64,000 bases of DNA. It comes from Halisarca cf. caerulea. Taxonomy: Eukaryota > Porifera > Demospongiae > Chondrillida > Halisarcidae. Of this stretch, positions 1 to 61,333 are shown piece after piece (within the stretch, counting starts at the first letter, position 1; every line of letters begins with the position of its first letter). Both the position numbers and the translations under genes were made by a program. The notes under the pieces were generated by a model, which did no database searches, was not told the DNA's origin, and was given only the letters and a program-made list of their open reading frames with translations. The DNA lies in assembly GCA_963170055.1 (NCBI GenBank), contig CAUJGJ010000012.1, forward strand, positions 335,839-399,838. Direction: 5' to 3'.

Positions 1-28327
<28,327 letters not shown>

Positions 28328-30895: not shown

Positions 30896-31491
30896 ATGGC
30901 GGTTAGTGAATCACGGATGTAAAATTATGTAGGATAGTTGTTCCTGTACTCCCTGGCTGTTGCGAGGTCTATTTTCGAACGTACTGTATGAGTGCCATGT
31001 AGTCTACGTAGCCAGTCGACCGTAACTACTCTCGTGGTTGTTGGATGGTGGCCTGCCAGCGGAGTATCTATGGTTTGCACGAGGGTTTGCATGCCGAAGA
31101 AGTCAGAGAAAAATGGCGTTTAGTAGGTGAACTGGGTATGGTTATTTCAGTCTCTACGAAGGATTTGTCCGAAATTGCTGCGCTTGACGACAATACAAGT
31201 CATGACATAGTCCATGTCTGTGTTTGGTAGATATGCGATATCTAGCTACTTGTCGTTTTGGCGTCGAATTTGGTCTCTTTTAAGAAGTCAGCCATTCTTG
31301 GACCAAATCCATTGTAATGGCGTCTGTATTCTACGTACATTTGTTTTATGGGTATGTGATGCCTGTTTAAATATGAGGGCCCCTCATATGCCAGATGTTC
31401 ATCTGTCTAGGTAGATCTGTAATATGGACGATAGTGTAGGTACGAAGACACTCTACCCAACCCTGAATATCTATGGTATGTAGTAGCAGCT

Positions 31492-31526
<35 letters not shown>

Positions 31527-34447
31527 AGGTAGGGAATGAGGGTGGAAGGTCTAGGGAGTAAAAGATTATTGCCTGCTGTACACAGACCTGCTCTAGCAAT
31601 GTACATTTGCGCATCTCAGACTGTCCCAGATGATAGTGGTTGTAAGGTCACATGTTGAGTGTGTCAGGGAGTTTCTGTTCAGTCCTACACACTGACTTGC
31701 CACAAGGTGTTAATCCCCAGTTCTTGGTCAACTTGGGTGCTTAAGTGTGCCATAGCAGTTGCGTATATATTCAGGTTTAGGTTTAAATGTAGTCTTACTT
31801 AAAACTGGGGGTACATGGCTCAACACCATTCAACGTACAAGGGATGAATACAAACTTTGAATCAATCATATCAAAGGGATAGCCATGCATGGAAAATCTA
31901 CCAAAAGTGAAGGAAAGATATAGGTATAAAAGTTGGAGATAACGCATGCACGATTTTGGGATCATGCAGACAGTTTATCAAGTTTTGTTAAGAAAGAGGA
32001 AGCAAGAGTAATAAAATTTCTAAGGGACAAACTTGATTTGCAACTTTTGGGAGACTGTTCCAGAGATTTGGTCCACAGTAGGCGAAAGCATTTTGACAAG
32101 CTCAGCATTAGGATGTAGGAGGTGCAGTTTCCCAGTCCCACAGGTTGAGTGAGGGTTTCTGGAGTTGCGGAATTTCTTGCAATTGGGCGAGGTAGTTGTA
32201 TAATAGGCAATGTGCAAATTTCTTCTGGCTTCTAAAGTGGACTATCGCAGTTGGTTACACATCCAAGTGGCAGGGGTGGGTTTGGTGGCAGGGGATTATT
32301 ATTTATTTGTTATTAATTTATTTCTCCTTTTCTGTACTATTTGTTGTGTGATCCCGGGTTATAGTAGCCTCTGGCTATTGGTTCCCCAGATTAATAAAGC
32401 TTTCCTATCCTATCCAATCCTAACAATTAAACCAAGGCTTTAAGCTCATTTGCTATGGGAATTACACTATTTCACAATATTTCAGTAAAATTGGTAAAGT
32501 TATTTACAAAAGTACATGTTGGCTTATTCCCAGTTGTTGTGGTAAGGCAGGAATATGCATGGATGTACAGGAAGTGTACGAGTTATATGTGTGCAAAACC
32601 AAGAAACCACATTTACCAGTATTCTAGATCTAACTAGTTACTAGTACTGTCAACTATAAACCTAGACTGAGAGCTGCAGAAGTACTATGTGTGTATTTGG
32701 AGTACTATAACTTTATTTATGTTGCCTAACCTTTTACCTTTACAGAAGCACCTGAAAGAGGGTAACATTGTACGTATAATCTGTAACTCTAACAAAAGAG
32801 CATTGAGGATCCTGAATGGGAACGTTGATGGAAATGGTGGTCTTGGAGAGTATGGTGAGGACAGTGTGTAGACCACTGTACTGTGTGGTGAGAACTATGG
32901 GTAGACCACTGTACTGTGTGGTGAGGACAGTAGGTAGACCACTTTACTGTGTGGTGAAGACAGTGGGTAGACCACTGTACTGTGTGTTGAGGACAGTGGG
33001 TAGACCACTGTACTGTGTGGTGAGGACAGTGGGTAGACCACTGTACTGTGTGGTGAAGACAGTGGGTAGACCACTGTACTGTGTGTTGAGGACAGTGGGT
33101 AGACCACTGTACTGTGTGGTGAGGACAGTGGGTAGACCACTGTACTGTGTGGTGAGGACAGTGGGTAGACCACTGTACTGTGTGGTGAGGACAGTGGGTA
33201 GACCACTGTACTGTGTGGTGAGGACAGTGTGTAGACCACTGTACTGTGTGGTGAGGACAGTGGGTAGACCACTTTACTGTGTGGTGAAGACAGTGGGTAG
33301 ACCACTGTACTGTGTGGTGAGAACTATGGGTAGACCACTTTACTGTGTGGTAAAGACAGTGTGTAGACCATTGTACTGTGTGGTGAGGGCAGTGGGTAGA
33401 CCATTGTACTGTGTGGTGAGGGCAGTGGGTAGACCATTGTACTGTGTGGTGAGGGCAGTGGGTAGACCATTGTACTGTGTGGTGAGGGCAGTGGGTAGAC
33501 CATTGTACTGTGTGGTGAGGACAGTGGGTAGACCACTGTACCGTGTGGTGAAGACAGTGGGTAGGCCATTGTAATTGTATTTCAATTGTAACTGGATTGT
33601 ATTTGGCATTGTAGCATATTGTGATTAGATCGTACTATGATTATGTGTGAAACTTTTTATGACACATACCATACGTACATATGCATAGTGTATACATAAA
33701 TGTATGTTTTTACTAAAGATTGATTGCATGTACAGTGTGTGGATATTGGCATTAGTGTGTTTAATGCACATTTGTCCACAGCTCGATTTATTGTCCATGT
33801 GCGGTCATCTGGTGCGATAGTGCTGCAGAACTACAAAGAACGTGGAAACTATTTGGCCATCAACAAAGGAAAGCTGATCGGCACTGTAAGCAGCTACATG
33901 CGTACTGGTGTACTGGATGTATGTGTATGCGTAGCTGTTTGTTTTGTCAGCTGAAGCAATGTTATCTCCTATAGTGCGAATTGTTACGTGGACCCTGTTC
34001 ACATGGAAACCTCACTTATCTGTATATGATGAACACACACATCCATTGTATATTGTTCTATGCTAATCCCTTTGTACAGTGCATGGAACCTCTCTAATCC
34101 AACACTCAATGGGACCTGAGAATAATGTTGGATTAGGATGTTATCGGATTATGAAAGGGCCTCTTACCATACTTTACATTCTCTGTATGCTTACACTCCC
34201 ACATTGCCCCCCCCCCCCTAAAGATTTTAGGACTCAGTTTGCCCCAGTTCTAATTCCTGTATGCAACCCTGTAGAGTAGTTTAGGTCTGGAATCTCATTT
34301 CTGCAGACATTCTTGGGACTAATGAGTTCCACTGAATCAGGTCCTATTGTACTATGTCAAGCACACATATAAACCACAAGGGTATAAAATCTTATATTGC
34401 ATGCTCTTACGATATTAATGCTTACGGTGTACACACATGTATGAAGT

Positions 34448-34496
<49 letters not shown>

Positions 34497-37400
34497 TGTG
34501 TGTGTGTGCGTGCGTGTGTGTGTGTGTGTGTGCGCGTGTGTGTGTGTGTGCGTGCGTGTGCGTGTGTGTGTGTGTGTGTATGTGTGTTTGTGTGTATGTG
34601 TGTGTGTGTGTGTTTAGTTATATTTATTGCCTGCAGGGCCGAGGAGGTGCATTTTGTGAACTCAGAATACACAACTCAAATTTGGGTCAGTACTACCATT
34701 GTATGAGACATGCTGTGTGTATTATCATCTGCAAACAGTCAGTGTTTGAAGATTTGGTGTGAGACTACTGCATTGTGAAGGGCAGTTGTGTGTATTTTAC
34801 AAGACTTCATGTAGGAGGGTGGGGGTGGGGGCAGTTGCCGTAGCTGTCAGACAGTATTTTGTATTCTGTGTTTTCTCTACACACATGGTAGCATCACCTC
34901 CATTGCTCTTTACGAGAATGCTTTTCACCCCCACTGAGACACTTTCAATTTGAAGGCCCGTTATATACACTATTCAGCTAGCATTTCTGATACATTTTAA
35001 ACTTGTAAGAATACCAGGTAGAAAGAATTGCAAGTTTAATTCAGTCCAAATTTATAAGTTAGTCGAAACGTTTGAGGTACGTACGTATACCTGAACTGGC
35101 AGTGTATAGTGATGTGTGTTCGTAAGTGTATAAATGTGTTGTGTAGTAACTATCTACATGCTGATCCACTGAGTCTTCTTTAGGTTACATATAGACTGCA
35201 GCTAATGCAGCCCATACTTGTACCTTATTTATGGTCCCTTTTGTTGTTGTTTTCTGTGTGGATTAGGTAATGGGATGATCTCTTTGGAGTCAGTTCATTG
35301 TCCTTCTCAGTTTGTTGGCATCCTCCCCAATGGAAGTACAAAGCTACCCAATAACACCAAAAAGGGACCTCACGGAAGCTTTTCAGTGGAACTGGTTCAG
35401 TCGGTGAGTATTTTCAGCTGTTGGTAACACAGAACAGAAGTTTTTAATTCAGGAGGTTGTGGGTGTGTTGGATGTGCATTTACCACATGCACTTACCTGT
35501 AGTAAGGGAAAAACATGTTTGAGATAGTTTCTACCTGAAGTTTAAGACTCGGTTATTTACTGCACATGAACATGTTACATGTGGTATTCATTATGGGAAC
35601 ATATAACTTGCACACATGAACCATGAACATGTAACTTATATACATGAACATGTAACTTGTATGCATGAACATGTAACATGCATTTCGTGAGTCTTACACG
35701 AAGAAATAACCTAAGACTTAGTGATGCTGAGATACTGCCAATTATATGTAAGAAACGTTAATTGGTGTGAATGGTTTGTGTGACATGCTTTTCATATAGG
35801 AAACTGTCATTTTTATGTGTTGTGTTCACATTGACTCACTAACTGATCGGAAATCTTTCTGTTTTAGCCGATACTCTGGCTTGAATGTTACATGGAAGTT
35901 TTGTGTTGCTACTTCATGTGATTTACGATATTGCATCATCTTAGCTGAGTTGTGTGACAGAAGTAGCAACTGCCTATTGTCTTTTCATCCGTTCTACAGG
36001 CTGCCCCTGCACCATCTCCTCATGGCTGCCCACCACCTCAGCCACATCAGCCACCTCAGCCTCAGTGCACTCAACAACCACCTCACCCGCCGCAGCCTGC
36101 TTACCCTCCCCAGCAACCACCTCACCCGCCGCAGCCTGCTTACCCTCCCCAACAACCACCGCAGCCTGCTTACCCTCCCCAACAACCACCGCAGCCTGCT
36201 GACCCTCCCCAACAACCACTGCAGCCTGCTTACCCTCCCCAACAACCTCACCCTCACCAGCAGCTTGCGTACCCTCCACAACCACTGCAACCATCTCAGC
36301 AACCACCCTACACATACCAGCCTGATTTCTCCACACAGCCAGCATACCCACCTCCTGTGGCAGTTGTTCAGCCCCCACTAGGAACATTTCAAGCACCTCA
36401 GCAACCAGACTATGATCCTCCTCCCGCATATGTCCCACCCGAGCAGGATTTCCCTCCAGAGGAAGTTTCAGATTCCAAGCCACCTCTGCCACCACAGTCC
36501 TCTGGAGGGTATGAAGCACCAACCTACCCCAGCCAGCCATCAGCTCCTCCTGCTCCTACAATGGTAAGTGTACAATACCACTGTGCCACTCTATAGTTCT
36601 CTAACACACTTGCACACTTACTGCAGGGTGAATATCGAGGACCACGCAAGGGGAGGTCCCAAGCTGCAGTGAGTTTGATAATGATAATCATTGATTGTAT
36701 ACAGATCATTTCAGGACTCAGGCCATTCGTATAACTCACTATTCCGCTAGCTGCATCTAACTTACACAGCAGAGCAACTGTTGTTGTCTGAGTCTTAGAG
36801 TTGCTATGATGAGATGCATTTAATTTTCCAGTATTTTGCGTGCTGGAGTGTAGCTGTCGAAAGTATATACAGTTAACTCCTGATATGAAGAACCACAAAA
36901 TCCACAAGAAGTGCATGTTAGTGCATTTCAGAGTATGAATATTGCAGCATTATTATGTATTTATACAGGAAATATGCCATAATTCACAATGATGGTCATA
37001 GTGAAGCTCAAATTTTAGTTTCTTGTATGTTTTTTGACTAGCCTGTGTACTTCCATGTCTTTAAGAACACAAGGTCCACTTCTAACCTAATTTGAAAGTC
37101 GATGGCAGCAGTGACAAGTTCTTTATACTAGGAGTTTGATTGTTTTAACAGAAAATAAGATCTATGCACACAAACTTCGACTTGGCAAATTGTTCTTTAT
37201 AAGCAGATCTAAAAGTTCTTGTAACAGGGTTCTTGTAACAGGGTTCTTGTAACAGGGTTCTTTATAAGTGGAGTCCACTATAGCTCTCAAGTTTGTTGCA
37301 TGTGGACAGAAGCATTGCATGAATGCCAGGTTTCTATATCCAGTGGGGGGGGGGGAAGCTTCCACCCCAAAACTATTCCAACTGTAGTGCAAATTTCTAC

Positions 37401-40400
37401 AGAGAAGGCCCTACTTGAGTGTTTAAGTCAACCTTAAATGGTTTAAAATGGCCCAAAACACCACCTTGTACAACCTAAAAACCCAAATTTTCCCTGGGGG
37501 AGCATACCCCCAGACCTCCTACAATACCACATACATCACTGTACTGCATGTGTGTATGAGGCATCTCAGGTACCACGTACAGTATGTGCATATCTGCCCC
37601 CTTCCATTTTTTTGTCTAATGTATGTCATTGCCCACATGATTAATTATCCTGAAAGCAAACCTACTGCATAGATGCAATATAACGTTAAGCACTATAATA
37701 CTGAACCCCCCCCCCCCCCTCCCAAAAAAGAAGTCATGCTGGATAGAACCCTCAATGGTAATGTGTTGTACACACTAATTGTCTTTGGCAGCCAATATTT
37801 TCCTTTGATGTTATAAGTCAGGGTTCTATCCAGTGGGTGGGGAGTAAGCTTCCACTCCCAAACAATTCCAACTGTAGTGCAGATTACTATAGAGAAGGCC
37901 CTACTCGAATGTCAAAATCAACCTTGAATGGCCTAAAATGGCCTGAGATACCACCTTATGAACCTAAAAACACTCAAATTTCCCTGGGGGACCATACTTT
38001 TTCTGTGCCTCCTCACATCACTGTGTTTTATAGACATCTAGAATACCACATGTGTGCGTATACGTATAGCTCCCTTCCATTACTACACTTTTTTTATTGG
38101 CCCACCCCCTTGATCATTATCCTGAAAGAAACCTACATAGATACATATAATGGACATTATACATATGTACATCGATAACACAATCATGCATGTTTAGCAC
38201 ATTAGGCTTGCCCTGTAATAGTAAATCTCCCCTCCCCCTCCCCCCCCCGACACACACACATGCAAAATTTTAATCCTAGATAAAACCCTGCCATTCAGTA
38301 TAGGCATTCTTACTCACTTCATTATTGCACATCGTGAATTTCTATTATTCCATATTCTCTCAGCTCAGCCTGCAACATGGATTTATTGTTTGTCTTCAAA
38401 ACGCTTGTACTGGTCACTTTCTTTGTATCGAGGATAACGGAACGGTCTGTGGCACTGGAGCAGATGACGATTTGAGTGAGGCAGCACCTAAACCGAACAA
38501 CTATATAATATAGACAAAAGCATGCTGTACACACTTTATGTTCACCATCTGCAGCACAATCCCTACTTCACCATTGGTACTCCAAGTTACTGGATGTGAC
38601 ACACACAGTGGAACCTGCCTAAACCAGCCAGGATTCTCTGGCACTGACCATTATTTCTTGTCATACAAATTGCTGTCTATAATTCAATAACCTGCTAATC
38701 TATAATCCAATAACCTGCTAATCCAGCACTGTTTTTCATTCCCCAATGGGGGGCCAGATTATACAGGTTCCATCCATGTACATGAATGGTAAACTGAGTG
38801 TTCCTTAGGTTTTATCCCAATGATAATCCATGTTGAGAATACAATGTAATAAGACATAACCACATACTGCACTTACTGTAGAGATGCACAAAGAAAACCT
38901 TTTCATGTAGTTGAAGAACTGTGCATCAAAACCCAGCAGCTATAGTCAAAAGCATGTCGTACACACTTCGTGCTCACCACTTGTGACACAATCTCTGTCC
39001 CACCCTGGTACTCTAAGGTGCTGAGGTATTTGATGTAGACATGTATAACATGCAAGTGGATTCATGGACAGTTTTGAATTATGTTTCATAAATTCAAATG
39101 GGTCATAAACTAAAATAATTACATATTAGATTTCAAGTGAAAATTAAAACTTTATATTTCATTTCTATTTGCAGCAGACTTTGTTGTTGTCACACGTGGA
39201 CTAGGCGTGGTCAGTTTCCAGTTGGCAAATGATCAAGAACGCTGGCTTGGAATATATAATGGTGTATTGACCCGTGTGAGTTTGCTAATTTACCTTTCCT
39301 GTGGAGCACTCTTTGACATTCATGCTGAATAAAAGTTTCTGTGATTGAACAAAAATTAAGAAAGTAAATCTTTGACCATCACCACAAGCAGTAAGGTTGG
39401 CACTGTATAGTCTGGAGATGCTGTAGTCCAGAAACACAGTGTTCTTTGGGGACATTTACCACCTGGTGCAGTTTCTTTTATACAAATAGAATCTCACTAT
39501 GTAGCATTCTTATTTGTTGTCAGATTTCTGTACAGTCATCTATAGCAATGTTTTGCAGGTAGTGAAAGAATGCTATAATTGTTAAGATATACAACTCTTG
39601 GGCTGTATGGTGCAAATGCTCCTGTTTTTGGATACTTTACGTTTACAGTGGAACCCCTCTAATCCAGCCCCCTGAATTGGGGACACCCCTCAAATGTGGA
39701 CACATGCCCCTGGAGCCAAATCTTCCACTATAATAAACCACAGTTCATCTCCAACCCCTGAAATGAGGACACCTCGATAATCAGGACAGTGCTTTCAGGT
39801 CCCAAGGTGTCCGGATTAGAGGGGTTCCACTGTAATGGGTCTTGGGTGAATTATATACCATACAGTCCTCACACCTACAGTGCATCTTAAATCCTGTCCC
39901 CTAAATGGGAAATATTAGCGAACAATGCATGAATTTCGCGAATTGGCGTCAAAACTGGTAGGCAGAAAAATGCGCAACTAAAAATTTTGCAAGCCTCACC
40001 ATAGATTGTTTATATCTATACTTTGGACCGAATGCAGAAATATTTGCAACCAAAAAATTTGTGAGTGGAGTCAATTCACAAAAAACACGAATATTATTGG
40101 TCACGAAAATTTCCCAATTCAGGGTACTATATCTATTATTATATTATATTCCAGGGTGGCGGCCATTTTCCACAATGTGCATTTAATGTGGTGGATTCCA
40201 ATCAAGGTGACAATTATGTCAGCTTTGAGTCAGTGGCACATCCAGGACAACACATTGGTGTCCGTCCTGGTGGAGATCCCAAACCTCCAGCCAACACTGG
40301 AAGAGGGCCTGAGGGGTCTTTCTGCCCTGTCTATGTTGATGAGGTGTGTATAGTCATTTGCAGTCTACTTTACCTCAAACTGTGTAAGGTTTACGTAATG

Positions 40401-41953
40401 CTTTGGGTGGTTCTATAGAGACCCATGTTTTCTAACCTTGGACTGAAGAGTAAGGCTTATGTGAGTTCTTTTCTTTCATATTTGTGTATCTGAAGAACAG
40501 TTTACACTAAAATACTGTTTTCTTGATTTGCAATGTACGTATGTGCTAGTGTTGTGCAATTAAATCGATTATTAGATTAATCGATCTGTGACAAGTTGTA
40601 ATAGTTGCAATCGATTGCCATGAGAAATCGACAATTACTTGAACAAATTGTAACAACAGCACAGGACATGGATAATAATGTAGAACAACTGACAGTGAGC
40701 ATGTGCAGTTAGATAGTGCTGAGATCGAGTGTTGAAAATGTCTGAAGAACCTGAGGACCTGCTAGCAACAGCTAATTTAAAGCCTCTCAAGAACAACACC
40801 AGTGACATTATCACTGCTAAGAGAACATGTCTAGACACCGAAAATGCATCCATCTTATTCAACATATCTTAATTTGATACTTCGTTTTTAGGTTTTTAGC
40901 TTCTCTTTTTAGTTTGATCACCTGCAGCTTTGGGCTGATTAATCGAAGCATCGTGATTACTTTCAATGTTGATTAGTAGTAATCGGCTGTGCTGATTTTT
41001 TCATTAATTGCACAACACTAGTATGTGCCAATGCTTGTAAGTCAATGTTATCTTTCTATTTCATCTGCCTTCCCCATAGTGGCGTCTGAATCATGGAAGT
41101 GTGGTTGTCCTAACCTCTCGTGCACACAACAAAAACCTCAGAATTCATTTAGATGGCCGAGTGGACTGTGAGGGTGGATGGGGAGAGTGGAGTAAGTCTT
41201 ACACTGTGTGTTTAGGATGGACTTGAGTGTGTGAAATGATATATCGTGAAGATTGTAAATATTTCATTTCTCTTTCCCTGTAGCCAAGTTTATTGTCGAA
41301 ACACGTGGAAATGGAGTGGTAGCACTCAGAAGCTGGAAGACACAAAAATGGTACCTTAACATCTCCAATGACAGGGTTGGATCAGGAGTGAGTGCGATGT
41401 ACACAAACTAAATGAGATCTAACCAGACCACAGGTTGTGTTAGATTTTAGTACATGTCTACACAACGCACAGCGTTATATTGTGTTTTTGTATACAGAGT
41501 ATATGGATGAGCTAAACTCTGTGTCCTGTAAACTAATACATCTATGCCATGATATGTACCCTGTTCTTCTATGGACCTGAGACATTTACAGTGAACCTGT
41601 ATAGACTGACCACCTGTCCATAGTGACCACAATTGCTCGTTCCCTGAAGTGGTCTTTATATACAGGTTTTACTGTGTGTGTAAAAGAACCGAGTTCCTTC
41701 TTCATGTCTGTAATCTTGCATACATTGTCCCATTCCTTCCACACAGACTGGAGGTGAATGGTGCAACTTCATACCAGAGGACCCAAGTGACTACCCGCAA
41801 GGAGGACAAGATTCCATTTGCTTTTCATTTGCCTGTCACAGAAGTCAGCACATCGGTGTGCTACCAAATGGAGACCTCAAGAGTGCCTCTCACACCCACA
41901 CTGGACCACACGGGCAGTTCATTGTTGTACCTTGTGACATAGTTCCTTATTAG
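30896..41953 (+). CDS. Three-trefoil (FGF/fascin-like) protein with PQY-rich linker, gene A of the cluster
   Basis: Exons: 30896-30901 (ATG GCG, inferred), 32746-32854, 33782-33885, 34637-34685, 35267-35403, 36000-36563, 36627-36668, 38364-38475, 39175-39275, 40155-40343, 40419-40460, 41080-41191, 41284-41387, 41747-41953 (TAG). These join in frame to 625 aa. Residues 3-135 are trefoil A ([41 protein letters not shown]). Residues 136-323 are a Pro/Gln/Tyr-rich linker (AYPPQQ repeats), and 324-337 a basic linker ([14 protein letters not shown]). Residues 338-471 are trefoil B, with Cys in place of several common residues. Residues 472-485 are a second linker, and 486-625 trefoil C. No signal peptide or membrane helix is visible, so it is cytosolic or secreted unconventionally. 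The fold and exon pattern resemble FGFs, but fascin-type trefoils are also possible. Function unknown. The start exon is chosen because gene C begins with an analogous two-codon exon; it is the weakest part. Confidence 0.82.
31493..31525. repeat. 33-nt G homopolymer
   Basis: An uninterrupted run of G (sense strand) in the presumed first intron of gene A. Homopolymer length may be affected by sequencing. Confidence 0.9.
32852..33573. repeat. 33-bp minisatellite starting at the exon 2 donor of gene A
   Basis: About 22 units of GTGGTGAGGACAGTGGGTAG plus ACCACTGTACTGT. The authentic donor at 32855 (TATG|GTGAGGACAG) is the first unit. Because 33 is a multiple of three, the array is open in several frames on both strands; those frames are artefacts. 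Confidence 0.93.
34449..34614. repeat. (GT)n microsatellite before exon 34637-34685
   Basis: GT tract with GC interruptions, ending 23 nt before the 49-nt exon of gene A. Confidence 0.93.
35560..35683. repeat. Short tandem CATGAACATGTAAC repeats
   Basis: Four to five imperfect units of about 22 bp in the gene A intron between 35404 and 35999. Confidence 0.65.
36000..36563 (+). other. PQY-rich linker exon of gene A
   Basis: One 564-nt exon (188 codons, phase 0 at both ends) encodes the low-complexity linker between trefoils A and B. It has several copies of a 30-nt unit giving [10 protein letters not shown], then a less regular Pro-rich part ending PPAPTM. Its last codon is ATG, directly before the donor GTAAGT. 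Long open frames on the other strand of this exon are artefacts of the repeat. Confidence 0.85.
37327..38290. mobile_element. Two tandem copies of a CAGGGTTCTATCCAG-type MITE
   Basis: Units at about 37327-37752 and 37820-38290 share most of their sequence (ATTCCAACTGTAGTGCA, GAGAAGGCCCTACT, TTTCCCTGGGGGA, ATTATCCTGAAAG). Each begins near a GGTTCTATCCAGTGG end and finishes with the inverted form. They lie head to tail in the gene A intron between 36669 and 38363, each with poly-C near its 3' end. Confidence 0.7.
39646..39832. mobile_element. TA-type MITE with CAGTGGAACCCCTC termini
   Basis: Perfect-looking inverted ends CAGTGGAACCCCTCTAATCC and GGATTAGAGGGGTTCCACTG, flanked by TA. 187 bp, in an intron of gene A. 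It appears young because the ends match over 20 bases. Confidence 0.87.
40547..41020. mobile_element. hAT-like MITE with 8-bp target duplication
   Basis: Terminal inverted repeats TAGTGTTGTGCAATTAA and TTAATTGCACAACACTA bound 474 bp. GTATGTGC is duplicated exactly on each side (40539-40546 and 41021-41028). It lies in the intron of gene A between exons 40419-40460 and 41080-41191. A 44-codon open frame inside (40738-40872, + strand, [20 protein letters not shown]...) may be a transposase remnant or captured sequence. Confidence 0.88.
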
Positions 41954-42401
41954 TATGACACATCCCTGCCGCCATTTTATGAGTTTACTATATTTAAGAG
42001 TTAGTATGTATTACTACTGTGTTGTCCCCTCATATATGATCCACCTATGCATCAGATTAGACTTGCATTGTGTTTGGTGCTGTGTACACATGTGTGCTGT
42101 AGACTGTCCGTAATACAGATCAATGCTGGCATTAGGTTATAATGCAGCGTACAATGGAGCCTCTATAATCCCACACTTTGCAGTGGTTGTTGGATTCTGG
42201 AGTTCGTTGTATACTTTATTATGATTTCTGTGTCTCAAAAGATGGTCAAGTTAGAGAGAATGTTTGATTACAAAGGTGCTGTATTACAGAGGCTTCACTG
42301 GATTAATATTATTCAAGTACGTATGTAAAGACACCTAATATGCACCAGCCTGTATAATGAGCACATGTATGTGACCCAGTTGTTTTAGATTTGACTGTGT
42401 T

Positions 42402-42402
<1 letters not shown>

Positions 42403-42472
<70 letters not shown>

Positions 42473-42516
42473 ATGCGTGTGTGCATGTGTGTGCGTGCTT
42501 GCGCGCATGTGTGTGT
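42403..42516. repeat. (GT)n microsatellite downstream of gene A
   Basis: GT tract about 450 nt after the gene A stop codon, possibly in the 3' UTR. Confidence 0.92.
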
Positions 42517-43305: not shown

Positions 43306-43337
<32 letters not shown>

Positions 43338-45400: not shown

Positions 45401-45406
45401 TATAAA
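45401..45406 (+). promoter_or_regulatory. TATA box candidate for trefoil gene B
   Basis: TATAAA lies about 100 bases before the ATG of the one-codon first exon at 45507. Transcription would then start near 45430, leaving a 5' UTR of about 75 nt. This is inferred from position and motif only. Confidence 0.4.
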
Positions 45407-49999: not shown

Positions 50000-52900
50000 A
50001 TGTCGGTAAGTAAAATTCGCGTCATTGCAATGTGTTTGTTTTCTATGGATACAGAGCACGGTTAGCACTAGAGGGATTCATCGAGGCTAACTGGGTTGTC
50101 CTGGTCATACATATTCGGCTGTGCCTTGGTGTAGGCGGGAAAAGCAACTGTAAGAGTTTGCCTGTAATACTGACAGCTAACCACTCGAAATTATGCGGCT
50201 AAAGTGCTTATATTTGGCCTCGAACGCAGGAATAGCCCAATGGTGTATGGCTTTGCATTGCCAATGTGCACGGTAGGGTCTTGACCACTAAGGGGAGATG
50301 AAACACTGGTGACTGACCCTAGGACACAGTGTTGATGAGTAAGAACCAATGCATTGGTGTGGAGTACTCTCCTGGCAAGGCCAGAGGGAGTACCATTTCC
50401 CTAAACAAGCTGTTGAAGCAATTGAAACAATAAGGCAGCAGTGGTCCAAATTGCAGTCGGGTTTTCCAAATTACCACTTTCATCCTCCTTGTTCCTTGCT
50501 GGTTTGAAATGTTGCCCCAACTCCTGGTCGCCACTCCTCATCTTCCTCCTCAGTGACTGTGGCAGTTTTCTTAATCATCCTCCCCCCCCCCCCCCATCTT
50601 TGCACTCACTTGCCTGGTGGTGGTAGCCATTATTATCACATTGTCCCATTGCTGTAGAATGAAAATGATTTTTCATTACGACAAGTAGGGAAATTGAAAG
50701 GGGCTCATTTTCACCCTTTTTCACTGGTTGCCACCACATGAAGTCCACAGAGTGAAGCAACAATGGAGATTTAATGAATTAATATGCATGCATGGATATT
50801 ATGTCATTGTCTCTTATCCATGAAATTTGAACCAAGTGGCAAAAATTTATGTATATTTGGAATGAAATGCACTCACACTTTGTTGTAGGGTCTATGCTCA
50901 CACTGAAGTACTGGTAATATCAGTTAATGCACGTACCTCTCATCATACTATTGCCTTGCATGCATCTCACAGCATACATCCAAAATGTATAGTTGAATTC
51001 TATATAATTCTACCGAGATACCATATAGACACTGATTTTCGTGGGGTGTATATTTTGCAAATCAAGAACTTGGCTTTGTAATTTATGATTTATTTTCATG
51101 AATGGACCAGTCCCTACTATATATTAGATAAACAGACTACTGAGTATGTCTTTAACCAAATATTGATTTTGCAATTGAATTTCGTGAATGCAGGCTCATT
51201 CACGAAGTTCGCGAAAATAAAGCCCTGTGAAAGTCAGCACCCATACAGTACTGGTACCACTATTGTACCAGTGCACTCTGTAGTTTGGCTGTGCTTGAGG
51301 CTGTGCAGTGTTGTATCAGCAATCAAACATACGGACATGTCAGTCTACACTACAGTAGCTCGGCAGATAGTGTTACTATGGTTTACTAAGTATAGATTAA
51401 CATATTGCTAGTTACTCCAATATATCATGTCAGGGTTCTAACTGCACATCCTGGATCTATTCTATGACGCACGTATAATTTACTGTATATAAGGTGATGG
51501 TGTGAGTGTCTTCTGTATAAATCATGTTTTATATAAAACAATGTTGGGGGGGGGGGTCACAGATAAGATTTGCACATCTGCACATAAGACAAGATGGCGT
51601 CCACAGAAGTGTGCTCATGATCACATCCCCATTTTCCCGTCTGTTCAGTAGACCAACAAAGTGAGGGTGTAGGCTTAAGTATGTTGTTTGAACTTTTTAC
51701 GGAATGTTTGTCTAATTTCTTCATTTGTAACGTATCCAAATATTATGGGAGACCTAGTGTGTTAGGTAACTGCAATCCACTCCATTTTCTACAGCAATTA
51801 CATAAAACGTCCTGCATTGGTGGTAATTGTAGTGGTACCCTAGCTAGGAGTCTGATGGTTCTCCTTGAGAGAAACAATCCAACATTGCTTTCTCAGGGCT
51901 TTTGGGACCACATTAGTAGGTTGCGTCTTCAATAATTGCAGTATTATCCATTGCTGTGAAAAGTGGTGTAGTGTGGGTAGGTACCATGCACGCATGTGTG
52001 CTGCATTCTTTGTCTAATCTACGTATGTCTGAAAAGTTTCCTTTTTATTACAGGAACATCTTCAAGAGGGTAACATTGTACGTATAATCTGTAACTCCAA
52101 CAAAAAAGCTTTGAGGATCCTGAATGGGAGCGTTGATGGAAATGGTGGTCTTGGAGAGTATGGTGAGAAGAAAGGGTGGACTAGAATAGCTGCAATATTG
52201 TTAAACCTGCATGTACGTACCTGCTGCTAGTCTAAGACCTGAAAATGAATGTTTTTGGGGGGATATTGATAAGCAAGCTGTCTGGTTGTAATTTCAGTAT
52301 AATTTAGTGTATTCTGAATAGAGTGTTTACAGGCATAGTATGCATGTTATTGTGGTATTTATTTGCCCATTGCAACATGTGAAAATTTGATTGTTGGCTC
52401 TGGTAAGATGCCATTTTTATCTACCCTAATACCGAAATCTGTAAAAATATTTTGGATGTGTTTTATCTTTGGACAGGTAGCACATGTCACATTTTTCATC
52501 AAACAATTATTAAATTGTACAACGTTTCACCCACTTGAGCTTCTTCAGGTTAACACAACTAAAACTAAAAGCTAAACCTCTGATTGATATGAATAATTGT
52601 TTGATGAAAGTTGTGACATGCGCTATCGAGAAAAAACACATCCAAATTGATCTACGTATCATGTTGAAGAATTAATACAAGCACATGCTGTCATATTATA
52701 AGTGTGTTTGAGTTGAAGCGTAATACACCTATACTTCTCCATTGATGTCCACAGCTCGATTCATTGTCCATGTGCGGTCATCTGGTGCGATAGTGCTGCA
52801 GAACTACAAAGAACCTGGAAACCATTTGGCCATCTACCAAGGAAGGCTGATTGGCACTGTAAGCAGCTATGGTTGTGGTTGTTTGTGGTTGTGATGGTTC

Positions 52901-55466
52901 TTGTGCACTTTCCTGTTTCATGCTCACTGTTGACTGACCCTGATGCACACCAATGCACAAACACAAGTTAGCGGAAAATTGTACATGTATGTGCACATGC
53001 ATATGCATTGTGTATGTGTGTACACACATACTGTATGTCCATGCACACGCGCATGTAACACATGCACACATAATATTGTACAACTTTGGAACAAATAAAG
53101 TTCTTTACAGCTGATGAAGGCCTACGCGGCCGAAATGTTCTGTGCATTGATTTTGTACAATTGATCTGTTACGTTAGAATTTGTTCGAAAGTTATATTTT
53201 ATCATAAATCATTGTAGCAATGAGTCTGTATCATATCATGCACACATATTTAGGTTTGAGACCACAGCTGGCCTGACCTGTATACTACTCTCTACTCTTA
53301 TAACTTCCTGCCTCAATGGGTGTCTCATTACCCTAGTGTCTGTACATGTGTGCACGTTAATAATGATTGATTGATTGATTGATTGATTGATATGCACTTA
53401 TTATGGAGAGTTTAAATGTACTTTTGCCAATGGTAGGGACTTAATAGGCCAATCAATGGTGTCCTGCTGGAGTATTTGGCTGTATTTCAGAGGTGTCTTT
53501 CAACATCTCTGAATGGTGTCCTTATAGAAGTATCACTGTGCATAGTACAGTGAAGAAGCTCTGTAGAGCACTAGTCTTGTAAACCCCGTGAAGAACCTCT
53601 GTAATGCACTAGTTTTGTGAACAAGACCCCTCCCCACCCAGTGGAAGGGGTCTGGCTCACAAGACTTGTTGTGCATAACCTCTCCATCCTACTTCCGAGC
53701 TAATCTGGTTGTCTTCCGAGGTGCTATCACTGTTTTGAAGTGTAGTAGGAGTCACTGAATAGCCTGAAAGCCCCTAATCCACACACCCAGTTCTCTAGCC
53801 ATTGAGTGTTGGATTGTACAGCCTCCACTGTGTGCTGGTTGTACAGCCTCCACTGTGTGCTGGTTGTGCAGCCTCCACTGTGTGCTGGTTGTACAGCCTC
53901 CACTGTGTGCTGGTTGTACAGCCTCCACTGTGTGCTGGTTGTACAGCCTCCACCGTGTGCTGGTTGTACAGCCTCCACTGTGTGCTGGTTGTACAGCCTC
54001 CACTGTGTGCTGATTGTACAGCCTCCACTGTGTGCTGGTTGTACAGCCACAACTGTGTGCTGGTTGTACAGCCTCCACTGTGTGCTGGTTGTGCAGCCTC
54101 CACTGTGTGCTGATTGTACAGCCTCCACTGTGTGCTGGTTGTACAGCCTCCACTGTGTGCTGGTTGTACAGCCACAACTGTGTGCTGGTTGTACAGCCTC
54201 CACTGTGTGCTGGTTGTGCAGCCTCCACTGTGTGCTGGTTGTGCAGCCTCCACTGTGTGCTGGTTGTGCAGCCTCCACTGTGTGCTGGTTGTGCAGCCTC
54301 CACTGTGTGCTGATTGTACAGCCTCCACTGTGTGCTGATTGTACAGCCTCCACTGTGTGCTGGTTGTACAGCCTCCACTGTGTGCTAGTTGTACAGCCTC
54401 CACTGTGTGCTAGTTGTACAGGCTCCACTGTGTGCTGATTGTACAGCCTCCACTGTGTGCTGATTGTACAGCCTCCAATATATACGTACGTATATGCTGA
54501 TTTATGTATGTACGTGGCCTTCCATTTCACCAGGGTCAAGGAGGACCGTTCTGTGAATTTAGAGTTTGTACATCCAATTTGGGTAAGTATCATTCATGGC
54601 ATAGAGATGGGTTGTTTAGTACAAGACTTGCATTATCGAAAATTGTACATTAACTTTTCCTACTGGTCGCAATGCTGTAGGATTGCAGCATGTAGAGTGT
54701 TCAGTAGTAGGGAGATCATATTGTAGCACTTTGTCTAAGTAGTATGCTTTGCAGCGATGTACAGTTATACATGAGCGAGGAGGGAGCTTAGCAAAGGCAG
54801 TGAATATTGGTCTATGTATGTTCTGTATTGTCCCCTTTGCCGTTGTCTTCTGTGTGGATTAGGTAATGGGATGATCTCTTTGGAGTCAGTTCATTGTCCT
54901 TCTCAGTTTGTTGGCATCATGCCCAATGGAAGTACAAAGCTACCCAATAACACCAAAACAGGACCTCATGGAAGTTTTTCGGTGGAACTGGTTCAGTCGG
55001 TGAGTTTTTATTTGTCGAATGATTACAAGCAAAATCTTTAGTATGGTATGTTGTGGTGTTGGGCACCTTCTAGCATGGTCATTGTAGGTGCTACGCTTTT
55101 GATCTTATATGTAATATGCCCATCGTAGGAGGTGGAGGGAGTGGAGGGGGTGCTGGCTAGCTCAGTAGGTCAGCACTGGAAGCTAAGCTGTGAAGCCAGG
55201 TGCCATCCCAGATACCTGTGTGCCATTTGACTTTTTCCCTGCACAAACAAGTTGCACAGTAGGAATGTCTACTTTCATATTTCAATACTCTTCTCACACA
55301 GCAGGTGCATGGGGTTTAGAATTGTGATAATTTATTATTTCCGTGACTTTTTAGGACTGTATTATGTATTAAATCAAAGATTTTGTATTTGTTTATATTC
55401 ATAGTATATTTGTGTAGTATTATATATTAAGCATAAACAGTATTTAATGTTTGAGTATGCTGAGAC

Positions 55467-55528
<62 letters not shown>

Positions 55529-56012
55529 CTATTTATAATTCACTAGTAGAGTTTTTAGAGCCTTATCCTGTTCTACAGGCTGCTCCTGTACCGTCTCCTT
55601 ATGGCCACCCACCACCTCAGCCACAGTACACTCCGCAGCCTGCTTACCCCCCTCAGCAGGCTTATCCACCACCTCAGCAGGCTTATCCACCACCTCAGCA
55701 GACTTATCCACCACCTCCGCAACAAGGCTACCAACCACAGCCTCCACCCTACCAGCCACCCCAGCAACCTGCCTACCAGCCACCCCAGCAACCTGCCTAC
55801 CAGCCACCCCAGCAACCTGCCTACCAGCTGCCCCAGCAACCTGCCTACCAGCCGCCCCAGCAACCTGCCTACCAACCACCACAGAAACCTGCTTATCCAC
55901 CATCTCAGCCAGGCTACCAACCACCACCACAGCAATCGCATGGAGGGTATACCACACCAACCTACCCTACTCAGCCAGCACCTTCTAGCTCCTCAATGGT
56001 GTGTGTGTGTGT

Positions 56013-56073
<61 letters not shown>

Positions 56074-56152
56074 TGTGTGTGTGCATTTGTGTGCTTGTTT
56101 GTTGTGCATGTGTGTGTGTGTATGTGTGTGTGTGTTGTGTATGTGTGCATGA

Positions 56153-56195
<43 letters not shown>

Positions 56196-57141
56196 TGTGT
56201 GTGTGCATTTGTGTGCGTGTTTGTTGTGCATGTGTGTGTGTGTATGTGTGTGTGTGTTGTGTATGTGTGCATGTATGTGTGTGTATGTGTGTGTGTGTGT
56301 GCGTGCATGCGCGCACGCGTGTGTGTGTGTATGTGCATGTGTGCATGTGTGCATGTGTGTGGTTGCATATTATGTACTGTATATACATGTGTGTATACAT
56401 AGTTTTGACTCCACCAGCTGCATCATAGTACATGAAACTGTTGCAGTATCTTGCTTGCATATTCTGTGAGCACTGAAAGCAGAACAGTTTCATTCCAATG
56501 TGTCTGTGTGATTGAGTCAGTGTACTGCCCATGGACATTATGACATAGGCATACTTAGTACTATGTGTATAGGCACATATGTATGTATATTTAGATGTAA
56601 TAGTGCACGTAGTCCCTTGGTTTCTGTTCCGAACGAAAGAGGGTGCTGCAAACGTATGTTGCTTCTGCTGTGTACATTATACAGGGTCATTGTGGGAACC
56701 TTTCATCAACGCCACACACACTTGGGTTAAATCGTAATAGTAATTATAATAATTATTATTATATGTACGTATGTGTACACATTTGAAGTGTTTGCTACTG
56801 TCAGTGATTGGGAGACCAATATTTAATAACATGTGCACACATTGTCTGGTTGATCAAATTCAAACTACTCGTATATTTTCCAGGCCTTGTTTAAGCATGG
56901 ATACATGATTCGATTGAGGTGTGCTAGTACGGGAAGGTACCTTAGAATCATGCCTAACGAGAGTACCATCAACGGAGAGGGAGGAGAAGGAGAGTTGAGT
57001 GAGTGTTTTGTATCTCTGCTATGTTATACAACAGTGAGAACTGCTTATGTGTACTCACGTGTGTGTGTGTGTGTGCGTGTGCGCGTGTGTGTGTGTGTGT
57101 GTGTGTGTGAGAGTGTGTGTGTGAGTGAGTGAGTGTGTGTG

Positions 57142-57195
<54 letters not shown>

Positions 57196-60100
57196 TGCGC
57201 ATGTGTGTGTGTGTGCGCGCATGTGTGTGTGTGTGTGCATGTGTGAATGTGTGCATGCATGTTCATATGTACGTACTAATGTATATCACTACGCACATCT
57301 CACTTAGAATTTGTTTGACAGTTAGTCATAGTAGTGTGCTAAAGTGAGCTGTTTGATGAAGTTGTAGTAATACAATGGTCATTCTGTGAACAGACATATA
57401 CCCCCCGGATGCATGATGTTTGTGACTAGGTTTGTTCAGTATCTTGAATCCTGTACTTTTCCTTCCATGTGCACTTTGTCCGCTGCCTTACAGCCAAGTT
57501 CATTGTGGTGACTCGAGGACCAGGAGTTGTCTCTCTACAGTGGGCACAGAACCCTCGGCACTACATTGGTGTATACAACAACATCCTCAAAGTGGTCAGT
57601 TGACTCCACGGCACTGTACAGTTTAACCACTTGCAGTCTTTATACTGTATTGTGCTACCAAGCCTCACTGCACTGTGCTACTGTGTCTCACTGCACTGTG
57701 CTACCAAGCCTCACTGCACTGTGCTACTGTGCCTCACTACACTGTGCTACCGTACCTCACTGCACTGTGCTACTGTGTCTCACTGCACTGTGCTACCAAG
57801 CCTCACTGCACTGTGCTACCGTGCCTCACTGCACTGTGCTAGTGTGTCTCACTGCACTGTGCTACCAAGCCTCGCTGTACTGTGCTACCGTGCCTCACTG
57901 CACTGTGCTACCAAGCCTCACTGCACTGTGCTACCAAGCCTCACTGCACTGTTCTACTATGCCTCACTGCACTGTACTGCCATGCCTCACTCTGCTACTT
58001 TTGCACTCTACCAATCCATTAATCTTCCCAAGGGCAATTGAGCCTGGTTGTAAATCCTCATGTAAGAAAATTAAGAGTTAGTCTTCAAATTTCCATAATT
58101 GTGGAGTGTATGTTACTTGGTAAGTCCAAGATGTACCTATGTCAATACATCAACGATGACATTGTGATTTTGGGAGGTGAGGATAGAGATCACTGTTGTT
58201 GCCATTGACTTCCTCTAGGGACCTGGCCATCTCTATTGTGCTTTTCGCATTCACAATTCTGATCATAATCCCAATGATGTCAGTTTTGAGTGTGTTGATG
58301 CTCCTGGACGCTCCTACCTTGGTATCCTTCCTAGTGGAGAGCCTAAAACGCCCAGTGGAACTGCAAGAGGGCTGCACGGAACCTTCACTCCGGTCTTCAT
58401 TCAGGAGGTAAGGCTTGTATCTGGGTAGCATGTAGAGGTGGTTGGAGGTTTCTGGACGGATGCAGTGAGACCTCTATTAAAGGACACCTCCGAAATGCAG
58501 AAACCTCCTTAAACAGGACACCATTGTGTCCCATTTGAAGTCCCTCACATTGGCATGTGCACATTTGAAACCTCTGAAATATGGACACCTCCATGTACAG
58601 GACAGCTTATGTACTGTGGTCCCAGTGGTGTCCTTATTACAGAGGTTTCACTGTACAGGACAGCTTACTGTGGTCCCAGTGGTGTCCTTATTACAGAGGT
58701 TTCACTGTACAGGACAGCTTACTGTGGTCCCAGTGGTGTCCTTATTTCAGAGGTTTCACTGTACAGGATAGCTTACTGTGGTCCAAGTGGTGTCCTTATT
58801 ACAGAGGTTTCACTGTACAGGACAGCTTACTGTGGTCCCAATGGTGTCCTTATTACAGAAGTTTCACTGTACAGGACAGCTTACTGTGGTCCCAATGGTG
58901 TCCTTATTACAGAGGTTTCACTTTAGTTCCACTTTACCGCTGTCATGACTGTTGTGTTGCATCAACATTCCTTTAGGCAACGGTTACCGTTAGTACGTAT
59001 AAGTAAATTTCTTATTCTCTTTATTTATTCAGTCTAGAAGTCCATTCTGCTAGGTTGTTTTGTGTGGTGGCCTCATGTTTTGCTACAAGGATGTCACTGC
59101 TTTTGATTCTGAAACACTATTAATACAGTAAATCCCCCACTGTTAAGGATGACAGTGTTAAAGTAGTAATTGTAGACGGCGTTGTGTAGTATTGTTCTGT
59201 CCCTACTCCACATGTGCATATTGTTCAGCCCCTACTCCTCATGTGCATATTGTTCAGCCCCTGTTCCTCATGTACATGTTGTTCAGCCCCTACTCCGCAT
59301 GTACGTAGTGTTCTGTCCCTACTCCACATGTACGTATTGTTCTGTCGCTGCTCCTCATGTACATATTGTTCTGCCCCTGCTCCACATGTATGTATTGTTC
59401 AGCCCCTGCTCCACATATATGTATTGTTCAGCCCCTGTTTCTCATGTTGAATGTTCTGTATTTTGCTTAATGTGTAGTTGTGTTATCGTGTGTTGTATAT
59501 TCTTAAATTCTCTTAGGTCAACATGCATGCCAACATCGGTCTGCGTAGCAATGCCTATGTGAGTATTGATGTAGTAGCACTGGTGGTGCAGTAGCACTGG
59601 TGGTGCAGTAGCACTGGTGGTGTAGTAGCACTGGGGATGTAGTAGCACTGGTGATGTAGTAGCACTGGTGATGTAGTAGCACTGGTGGTGCAGTAGCACT
59701 GGTGGTGCAGTAGCACTGGTGGTGTAGTAGCACTGGGGATGTAGTAGCACTGGTGGTGTAGTAGCACTGGTGATGTAGTAGCACTGGTGATGTAGTAGCA
59801 CTGGTGGTGTAGTAGCACTGGTGGTGTAGTAGCACTGGTGATGTAGTAGCACTGGTGGTGTAGTAGCACTGGTGATGTAGTAGCACTGGTGGTGTAGTAG
59901 CACTGGTGGTGTAGTAGCACTGGTGATGTAGTAGCACTGGTGATGTAGTAGCACTGGTGGTGTAGTAGCACTGGTGGTGTAGTAGCACTGGTGGTGCAGT
60001 AGTAGCACTGGTGGTGTAGTAGCACTGGTGGTGCAGTAGTAGCACTGGTGGTGTAGTAGCACTGGTGGTGCAGTTGTAGCACTGGTGGTGTAGTAGCACT

Positions 60101-61333
60101 GGTGATGTAGTAGCACTGGTGGTGCAGTAGTAGCACTGGTGGTGCAGTTTGGCACATTTATGTTCCAAAATGCCGTTCTAACTTTTACTTGTAACTGGCA
60201 AAAATTGTGTTTATTTGTTTTCATTTAGTTCTAGTGTATGTTATCTGAAGTTTGTATGTGAATATGTACCATACATACATGCAATATTGTGTTGTGTGCC
60301 TCTTGCACTTTTGCTGATTACTGATGATTTATCTGATGGTGTGTTTCTTCCCCTGCATTGATGTGTGCACTGCCAGTGGCGTCTGGCTCATGGCAATGTA
60401 GTGCACCTAACAGCTCGAGTTAATGGCAAGAATCTGAGGATGCATGCAAACGGTGCATTCGACTGTAAGGGTGGACGAGACAACCAGTGTAAGTGTCTCG
60501 AGTAGTTTAAGTAGTTTTACCAAGACATCTTGAGGCCCCTTCAGAATCTGTACTTGGTTCCATTAGCTCTATGCGTGCTTTGTGAAATGTACTTATTTTA
60601 TGTCTACAAACTGCCTTCTCTCTCCTTCATTTTATCCTTTCTTCACAGTCGATCTGTTCTCACTTTAATTTTTGATTACATGCATGCCAGTGATCCTTAT
60701 AGTTTTATGTATATTTTCTTCTGTAGCAAAGTGGATAGTCGAGAACAGAGGTAATGGGGCTGTTACTCTGAGGTCGTACAACGATCAGAAGAAGTACATC
60801 AACATGGAACAATCAAAGCTTGGCGTTGGGGTACGTAGAACATTGTAGTACTTGTTTATTACCTTTGATTTACAGATGATTTTGGCATGTTTTATGGAGT
60901 ATTTTGGTGTATATGTAAGTGCAATTCTGTACATGCTAACCTCTCCACACTTATCTAACTTGGAACTTTTATTCTAAATAGACTCGAAATTAACAGTAAC
61001 AGCATAATATGTACATAGTAATAAACTAAATTTTTCTATACAGTACGTACATATTAATTGTCAAATAACATTGGGATGCTGGATCGAGGTCCACTTAGGT
61101 CAATTTTACTCTTTTTATTTTTCTTCCTCCTCAAGACTGGCGGAGACCTGTGTGTGTTCAATGTGGAAGACCCCAATGATAATATGACAGAGTACATCTG
61201 CTTCTCCTTGATGTCTAATCGTGGTCTTCACTTGGGAGTGGAGAAAAGTGGTCTGATTAGGGCCCCCATTCAGACTGGCAATGGTGTGCATGGACAGTTC
61301 TTGGTCACAGTAGCAGATCACATAAACTACTAA
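50000..61333 (+). CDS. Three-trefoil (FGF/fascin-like) protein with PQY-rich linker, gene C of the cluster
   Basis: Exons: 50000-50005 (ATG TCG), 52054-52162, 52755-52858, 54534-54582, 54863-54999, 55579-55998, 56884-56998, 57494-57594, 58219-58407, 59517-59558, 60377-60488, 60727-60830, 61136-61333 (TAA). The frame is continuous for 561 aa. Residues 3-135 are trefoil A, almost identical to gene A. Residues 136-275 are a Pro/Gln/Tyr linker (AYPPPQQ and PAYQPPQQ repeats). Residues 276-410 are trefoil B, 411-424 a linker ([14 protein letters not shown]), and 425-561 trefoil C, the most divergent of the three. The 42-nt linker exon present before trefoil B in genes A and B is absent. No signal peptide is visible. 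The first exon is supported by a good GTAAGT donor, matching phase, and a short pyrimidine-rich leader. Introns are swollen by five minisatellites and several GT tracts. Function unknown. Confidence 0.86.
52450..52648. repeat. Inverted repeat with a hammerhead-like core motif between the arms
   Basis: Left arm 52450-52512 and right arm 52593-52648 are inverted copies (GGATGTGTTTT... and ...AAAACACATCC; CATCAAACAATTATT and AATAATTGTTTGATG). Between them, on the minus strand at 52525-52548, is CTGAAGA-N13-GAAA. A related motif is at 53111-53135 on the plus strand. Confidence 0.55.
53609..53667. mobile_element. Small foldback element in gene C intron
   Basis: CTAGTTTTGTGAACAAGACC pairs with GGTCTGGCTCACAAGACT around the loop ACCCAGTG. 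The terminal CTAG resembles the other foldback elements. Confidence 0.6.
53813..54475. repeat. 25-bp minisatellite in gene C intron
   Basis: About 26 units of CTCCACTGTGTGCTGGTTGT plus ACAGC, ending some 60 bp before exon 54534-54582. Open frames of 200-290 codons across it on both strands are repeat artefacts. Confidence 0.94.
55471..55527. repeat. (GT)n microsatellite before the gene C linker exon
   Basis: GT tract ending about 50 nt before exon 55579-55998. Confidence 0.92.
55579..55998 (+). other. PQY-rich linker exon of gene C
   Basis: A 420-nt exon (140 codons, phase 0 both ends), homologous to the linker exon of gene A: both open with AAP-PSP and end in an ATG codon. The repeat units differ: here three QQAYPPP-like units and then about five 24-nt units giving PPQQPAYQ. 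The donor GTGTGT at 55999 is the first unit of a GT microsatellite about 350 nt long. Confidence 0.85.
55999..56360. repeat. (GT)n microsatellite that contains the gene C linker-exon donor
   Basis: The donor of exon 55579-55998 is the first GT of this tract. Two internal blocks of about 125 bp repeat each other (GCATTTGTGTGC... TTGTTGTGCATG), so the tract itself has been tandemly duplicated. Confidence 0.94.
57058..57250. repeat. (GT)n microsatellite in gene C intron
   Basis: GT tract with GA and GC interruptions starting about 60 nt after the donor of exon 56884-56998. Confidence 0.92.
57648..57990. repeat. 23-bp minisatellite in gene C intron
   Basis: About 14 units of TGCTACCAAGCCTCACTGCA plus CTG, with variants CGTG and TGTG, starting about 50 nt after the donor of exon 57494-57594. 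Confidence 0.9.
58606..58922. repeat. 54-bp minisatellite in gene C intron
   Basis: Six units containing ACAGAGGTTTCACTGTACAG and TTACTGTGGTCCCAGTGGTG. The AGGTTTCACTGTA part is a MITE-type terminus. The preceding 58467-58600 looks like the left half of such a MITE. Confidence 0.9.
59209..59452. repeat. 29-bp minisatellite in gene C intron
   Basis: About eight units of GTTCAGCCCCTGCTCCACAT plus GTATGTATT, with variants. Confidence 0.85.
59571..60147. repeat. 17-bp minisatellite in gene C intron
   Basis: Over 30 units of GTAGTAGCACTGGTGGT, starting only 12 nt after the donor of the 42-nt exon 59517-59558. A long minus-strand open frame (59442-60224) is a repeat artefact. Confidence 0.94.

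Follow-up and report, generated by a model that had tools for sequence, protein, structure and literature searches.

Where the ligands of the fibroblast growth factor (FGF) family came from is an open question, and it is raised by a locus in the demosponge Halisarca cf. caerulea. In the window analysed here (a stretch of 64,000 nucleotides; assembly GCA_963170055.1, contig CAUJGJ010000012.1, positions 335,839 to 399,838 of the forward strand), three genes, termed A (from 30896, a questionable start, to 41953), B (45507-48986) and C (52054-61333), encode eight beta-trefoil modules. Are these modules relatives of FGF, or do they resemble it in fold alone? Judged from their sequences and gene structures, the cluster modules are very probably homologous to FGF and share its introns, and we consider it likely that the genes encode FGF-family intracellular scaffolds that have retained the ancestral FGF exon plan. 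The initial annotation had proposed a tandem cluster of FGF relatives with the FGF exon plan, and profile searches and an alignment with the introns of FGF10 agree in supporting that proposal. The introns matter because two of them with equal sites and phases provide a marker of descent that is independent of weak sequence similarity.

The three genes were rebuilt exon by exon from splice sites and reading frames. Genes A and B have 14 and nine exons and encode 625 and 303 aa, the lengths initially annotated, whereas gene C, previously put at 561 aa, now stands at no less than its twelve located exons provide (at least 559 aa), with the first exon not among them. All eight modules (133-140 aa) have a first exon of 109-115 nt ending in phase 1, a middle exon of 104 nt (A1, A3, B2, C1 and C3) or 101 nt (A2, B1 and C2) ending in phase 0, and a third block of 186-207 nt starting in phase 0. 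The exon plan first described thus holds throughout, except that the third block of A1 and C1 is itself split into 49 and 137 nt by an additional phase-1 intron; the five 104-nt exons were found at the positions given for them, with AG and GT ends. In each gene a conserved 42-nt exon separates the final two modules (A2/A3, B1/B2 and C2/C3). Linker exons rich in Pro, Gln, Ala and Tyr join modules in gene A (188 aa) and gene C (140 aa), as had been claimed, while gene B is without a low-complexity arm. Modules C1 and A1 are 87% identical.

Splicing of genes A and B is supported by two proteins. P0002 (303 aa, from a contig of 1564 nt) agrees with spliced gene A at 300 of 303 residues; the match runs from the final codon of exon 6 up to the stop codon and crosses eight junctions, that between exons 6 and 7 being supported by one Met only. 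P0001 (from a contig of 1276 nt) corresponds to spliced gene B from exon 4 onward (248 of 250 residues, five junctions), and its start is a retained intron. The dN/dS ratio was below 1 in nine of ten module pairs, the nine with a defined dS, although dS is saturated for distant pairs; dN and dS were 0.065 and 0.249 for A1/C1 (ratio ~0.26), and 0.275 and 1.25 for A3/B2 (ratio 0.22). The modules are under purifying selection.

We placed the module introns on those of FGF10, for which passages of PMC2626586 give an exon 2 that starts GCATCCTGGA and an exon 3 that starts AAAGAATTTA at c.430, after residue 143. On these data the Ser codon of SILE is interrupted by intron 1, a phase-1 intron, and intron 2 (phase 0) follows 104 nt further on by count; the FGF10 protein used is identical to 1nun across the typed core. 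FGF5 has 364, 104 and 348 coding bases, i.e., phases 1 and 0, in the portion of PMC2754481 consulted. Eight window modules, two modules of a relative discussed below (P0003) and three FGFs were aligned in three MAFFT modes. Intron 1 fell in the FGF10 intron-1 column in all eight window modules under each mode, while intron 2 matched exactly in A1 and C1 and was displaced by one column in the remaining six. The invariant cysteine of FGF, near the start of exon 3, is likewise a cysteine in 8/8 window modules. The intron comparison suggested by the initial annotation therefore places the phase-1 and phase-0 pair with that of FGF10, exactly or one column off. With uniform placement, which is a simplification, and the modules taken as one independent case, the chance of both introns matching exactly at random within a module is 1.3e-5, and 400,000 simulated draws put the exact match at 5e-6 and, if one codon of leeway is allowed at an unchanged phase, the match at 9e-5 for two introns or 3.4e-4 for three.

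The shared introns could also have arisen by convergence, through independent insertion near the boundaries of the trefoil units. By residue count both introns do sit roughly at the joints of the trefoil repeats, where insertion may be tolerated. However, both positions and phases agree with FGF10 within one column, and convergence is disfavoured because repeat symmetry alone does not account for two introns of unlike phase (1 and 0); we judge it highly improbable. Among the titles and abstracts searched, a coverage without most subscription journals, there was no report of the FGF intron pair in sponges, and the words intron and exon occur nowhere in the main text of PMC3420111.

Relatives of the cluster occur beyond the window. 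When the source genome (454 contigs, 194 Mb) was searched with gene B, 20 of 22 matches fell in the cluster on contig C12 and the rest on contigs C358 and C448. A hidden Markov model of the module located two further genes. Gene D, on C12 and 3.2-7.4 kb past the downstream end of the window (L045, 3220-7359; window coordinate = 64000 + position), consists of a PQY-rich linker and two divergent modules, and gene E, on the minus strand of C358 (211256-213676, L042), of one module and a PPPYQPPP tail. Their modules D1, D2 and E1 also have a phase-1 intron followed by a phase-0 intron, with middle exons of 113, 104 and 122 nt, so that this order is found in 11/11 modules of genes A-E; these three were compared with FGF10 by phase only, the column comparison covering the eight window modules. 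A first protein search with a single-module alignment yielded three proteins, all fragments from the same species or one close to it. In the final search, 7992 candidates were scored and 12 proteins returned, 11 of them besides P0001: two-module relatives P0003 and P0007-P0015 and the one-module P0016, all from short JGI/Logan contigs and 27-37% identical to P0002. Like the cluster, these relatives have tandem modules (P0016 excepted), and several have Q-rich or GYGGQQ-rich tails; low-complexity regions comprise a Q-rich head in P0013, GYGGQQ repeats in P0014 and P0015, and a Q-rich tail in P0016. Pattern scans of viral and prokaryote contigs gave 6 and 126 matches, respectively, and no relative among them.

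Profile searches favoured FGF over fascin, a comparison on which the initial annotation had staked its proposal. At the Pfam cut-off of 24 bits (FGF, PF00167), five of the six proteins scanned passed, namely A1, A2, B, C1 and C2C3 (scores in Table 1), with B scanned whole and C2 jointly with C3 in place of single scans of B1, B2 and C2. E1 also passed (25.7), and among ten of the 11 relatives (P0010 set aside) five passed, two fell just below and three gave no match. IL-1 family scores were below their cut-offs (IL33_bt 14.6 and 15.1 against 27; IL1 11.9 for E1 against 25). A profile of ten modules matched 142 sequences in the PDB, the best 60 of which are FGF1 and designed trefoils that we take to be derivatives of human FGF1. 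In hhalign the modules matched an FGF1/2/10 alignment with a probability of 96, and in a second run with a score of 49.8, while none of 60 column shuffles scored above 19.0; circularly permuted FGF profiles scored 28.3 and 37.1, as expected from the internal symmetry of the trefoil. Single sequences scored 48.9 for FGF1 (probability 94.7), 48.7 for FGF2 (94.5) and 20.5 for FGF10; it is thus FGF1/2 that the modules resemble, and a comparison with FGF10 alone would have missed this. The modules have the FGF-type beta-trefoil fold. In each of the two VIA lists all 50 matches listed were to FGF1 or FGF2, mostly over the second module, with other families possible, and FHF1b was among the Foldseek matches (TMt 0.83). 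The 50 matches listed from the viral library included, by name alone, viral FGFs, fascin-like and lectin-like proteins.

Several observations weigh against descent from a common FGF-type gene or against parts of the gene models. A3 alone, D1 and D2 scored under the Pfam FGF cut-off, and an FGF match of C2 is not established on its own, since that of C2C3 falls in C3. The introns were placed on FGF10, although hhalign matched FGF10 alone poorly (probability 4.2), and structure alignments to FGF reached an identity of only ~20-23%. The 104-nt pattern was chosen by eye and the match noticed before its chance was estimated. In the FGF cysteine column both P0003 modules have a T, and reading by eye revealed no such cysteine in D1, D2 or E1. 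With the FGF family as query, a six-frame genome search yielded no match above the cut-off, a result attributable to the shortness of the exons, and a single sub-threshold match on C448; a search of the source genome with FGF10, itself uninformative, found no match. The N-terminal ends of genes A and C are provisional: a GPRKG exon sought in gene C was not found, and a first-exon scan of that gene gave no convincing candidate. Finally, two results point to other trefoil families, C2C3 scoring slightly over the RicinB_lectin_2 cut-off (25.8 against 25.6 bits; PF14200), with no such match listed for the other five proteins scanned, and Foldseek E-values ranking two-trefoil chains (fascin, HA33 and others) ahead of FGF.

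The latter ranking bears on whether the cluster proteins are fascin-like or generic tandem trefoils, i.e., actin bundlers whose likeness to FGF is merely one of fold. Fascin carries tandem trefoils in one cytosolic chain, an arrangement shared by the cluster, and fascin-1 is the top Foldseek match by E-value for both models. Weak Pfam Fascin matches (B 16.6, E1 17.5, P0013 19.7) and an hhalign probability of 60.8 against the first fascin module of contig C448 point the same way. Nevertheless, the Fascin scores, including 13.7 for P0002, lie under the cut-off of 23.1 (PF06268), and superposition of the two-domain chains is poor (rmsd 7.7-15.5, TM <= 0.43). In hhalign the three fascin modules of C448, compared singly as their joint alignment was too poor for a profile, scored 31.5, 10.0 and 14.4, below FGF1 and FGF2. 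In addition, the intron pair and the cysteine are common to the cluster modules and FGF. The three fascin matches of the assembly offer no intron comparison because all lie in one open frame. We therefore consider the fascin-like explanation very unlikely. The frame in question (C448:670160-671203, L043) has a reported length of 3781 aa, lies on a contig of 2.85 Mb and also contains the sub-threshold FGF match mentioned above; GC content is 0.27 over a 9.9-kb stretch of C448 and 0.41 in the window, and the contig perhaps belongs to another organism.

The C2C3 score raises instead the idea that the proteins are R-type (ricin-B-like) lectins that bind glycans via their trefoils. P0012 also passes the lectin profile (28.2), which matches 5/13 family members at E <= 0.1. 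In contrast, the FGF profile matches 10/13 family members, C2C3 itself matches FGF with an E-value of 3.1e-7 and the lectin profile with 1.8e-5, and the lectin score of P0002 is merely 13.9 bits. A lectin identity, which also sits poorly with the lack of a signal peptide in a hydropathy scan, appears unlikely.

If the modules are homologous to FGF, they could be sponge FGF ligands, secreted or exported non-classically, that act on an FGFR-type kinase. The cluster proteins match the FGF profile, and FGF1 and FGF2 likewise lack a signal peptide, as do FGF11-14. Passages of two papers report candidate receptors, with Fgf receptors annotated in Spongilla (PMC10176882) and FGFR-type kinases in sponges (PMC8224027), the latter, however, without FGF-binding Ig domains. 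The modules themselves resemble vertebrate FGF5, FGF10 and FGF1/2 in the trefoil fold, the Pfam FGF profile and the invariant cysteine, and FGF5 and FGF10 in having phase-1 and phase-0 introns ~34 codons apart and a 104-nt middle exon (stated for FGF5, by count for FGF10). In contrast to vertebrate FGFs, genes A-C encode two or three modules per chain, with PQY linkers in A and C, and the modules are without the basic heparin cluster, having 1-6 K/R in their last 28% by composition count versus 8-9 in FGF1, 2 and 10. The HBGF/FGF signature (the pattern of PROSITE PS00247) and YNTY occur in 0/11 modules versus 3/3 of these FGFs. A hydropathy scan of the N termini at hand found no hydrophobic leader or membrane span, in agreement with the initial annotation, though the starts of genes A and C are provisional. 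On sequence grounds, the cluster proteins are not ordinary FGF ligands, and a ligand function is very improbable.

Parts of these findings may already be known from earlier work. Passages of a 2023 study (PMC10176882) describe a structure-based FGF candidate in Spongilla, likewise a sponge protein with an FGF fold; as described there, it differs from the cluster in that residues 61-230, about one trefoil, were superposed, with 11.8% identity to chicken FGF4. Excerpts of a 2021 paper (PMC8224027) attribute FGF or FGF-like domains to choanoflagellates, sponges and ctenophores, regard matches in sponges or choanoflagellates as no more than FGF-like, and treat canonical FGFs as confirmed solely in cnidarians and bilaterians, in whose ancestor they place the canonical, secreted pathway; they cite Bertrand 2014 for the origin of FGF signalling. 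In the part of PMC7260276 consulted, FGFRs are placed in the eumetazoan ancestor. The earlier remark that this lineage is said to lack clear FGFs is too strong in view of the published Spongilla candidate and the FGF or FGF-like domains mentioned for sponges.

Returning to FGF-family intracellular scaffolds, the cluster proteins probably reside inside the cell. FGF11-14, the FGF homologous factors (FHFs), are intracellular and have the FGF fold without a signal peptide; they consist of a single module, in contrast to the two or three per chain in genes A-C. By likeness to the FHFs, the cluster proteins may be cytoplasmic, where they would act as multivalent scaffolds. The several trefoils of a chain would serve as binding faces, and the Pro/Gln/Tyr-rich linkers would tether them and promote assembly, for which the low-complexity arms of galectin-3 and annexin A7/A11 offer analogies. 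The main hint is that low-complexity arms recur across genes A, C, D and E and P0013-P0016, and we put this multivalent scaffold mechanism forward only tentatively.

The modules may stem from a pre-FGF gene, may form a sister branch, or may be derived from a secreted FGF. Their common ancestor with the FGF ligands would already have had both introns, and the cluster would have grown by duplication of modules and tandem duplication of genes. If the two introns are a common inheritance, the FGF gene layout is at least as old as the divergence of sponges from other animals, and gene structures could serve to trace how the ligands arose. A more speculative possibility is that the FGF domain and its two-intron layout are older than FGF signalling: the ancestor would have been an intracellular tandem-module trefoil with low-complexity arms that still exists in sponges and perhaps also among unicellular eukaryotes; secreted FGFs would represent one module with its introns that gained a leader and a receptor.

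Table 1. Exons and modules of genes A, B and C, in window coordinates (exon lengths in nt in brackets).
Feature	Position	Strand	Details
Gene A, possible first exon (ATGGCG, 6 nt)	30896-30901	+	guess, no transcript coverage
Gene A, module A1	32746-35403	+	exons 32746-32854 (109), 33782-33885 (104), 34637-34685 (49) + 35267-35403 (137); Pfam FGF 31.7 bits
Gene A, PQAY-rich linker exon	36000-36563	+	564 nt, 188 aa
Gene A, 42-nt exon	36627-36668	+	spliced in P0002
Gene A, module A2	38364-40343	+	exons 38364-38475 (112), 39175-39275 (101), 40155-40343 (189); Pfam FGF 26.5 bits; spliced in P0002
Gene A, 42-nt inter-module exon	40419-40460	+	spliced in P0002
Gene A, module A3 and stop	41080-41953	+	exons 41080-41191 (112), 41284-41387 (104), 41747-41953 (207); Pfam FGF 17.4 bits; spliced in P0002
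Gene B, first exon (ATG)	45507-45509	+	inferred
Gene B, 42-nt exon ASISGPRKGKSHAT	45694-45735	+	gene model
Gene B, module B1	46110-47928	+	exons 46110-46221 (112), 47163-47263 (101), 47740-47928 (189); whole B Pfam FGF 42.7 bits
Gene B, 42-nt inter-module exon	48003-48044	+	spliced in P0001
Gene B, module B2 and stop	48341-48986	+	exons 48341-48452 (112), 48535-48638 (104), 48780-48986 (207); spliced in P0001
Gene C, module C1	52054-54999	+	exons 52054-52162 (109), 52755-52858 (104), 54534-54582 (49) + 54863-54999 (137); Pfam FGF 24.9 bits
Gene C, PQAY-rich linker exon	55579-55998	+	420 nt, 140 aa
Gene C, module C2	56884-58407	+	exons 56884-56998 (115), 57494-57594 (101), 58219-58407 (189); Pfam scan joint with C3
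Gene C, 42-nt inter-module exon	59517-59558	+	gene model
Gene C, module C3 and stop	60377-61333	+	exons 60377-60488 (112), 60727-60830 (104), 61136-61333 (198); C2C3 Pfam FGF 30.8 bits, best stretch in C3

The introns of the cluster contain several minisatellites. One in gene A (32853-33573; 21.8 copies of 33 bp) begins right at the exon 2 donor site, and every unit therefore repeats the donor-like TGGTGAGGACAG. Those in gene C lie at 53799-54477 (25 bp x 27), 57644-57991 (23 bp x 15), 58594-58922 (54 bp x 6) and 59570-60148 (17 bp x 33). Upstream of the cluster, at 1357-17847 of the window, open frames carry HSA, SNF2 and Helicase_C domains, presumably those of a SMARCA/BRG1-type remodeller, and a COX6A open frame (62407-62769) lies between genes C and D. 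Elsewhere in the assembly, many cathepsin-L-like exons on contig C78 (29353-561294) probably form a tandem array. Silicatein, considered as a sponge marker, was not found: 12 of 31 cathepsin matches were inspected, and the active site, readable in 8 of these loci (some overlapping), was CGSC each time and never of Ser type. Contig C454 (19,152 bp) is a mitochondrial genome, with atp9 (identified by eye), 25 ARAGORN tRNA genes on one strand, and a cox1 whose seven internal TGA codons are opened by table 4, a combination of features that we take to be typical of demosponge mitochondrial genomes.
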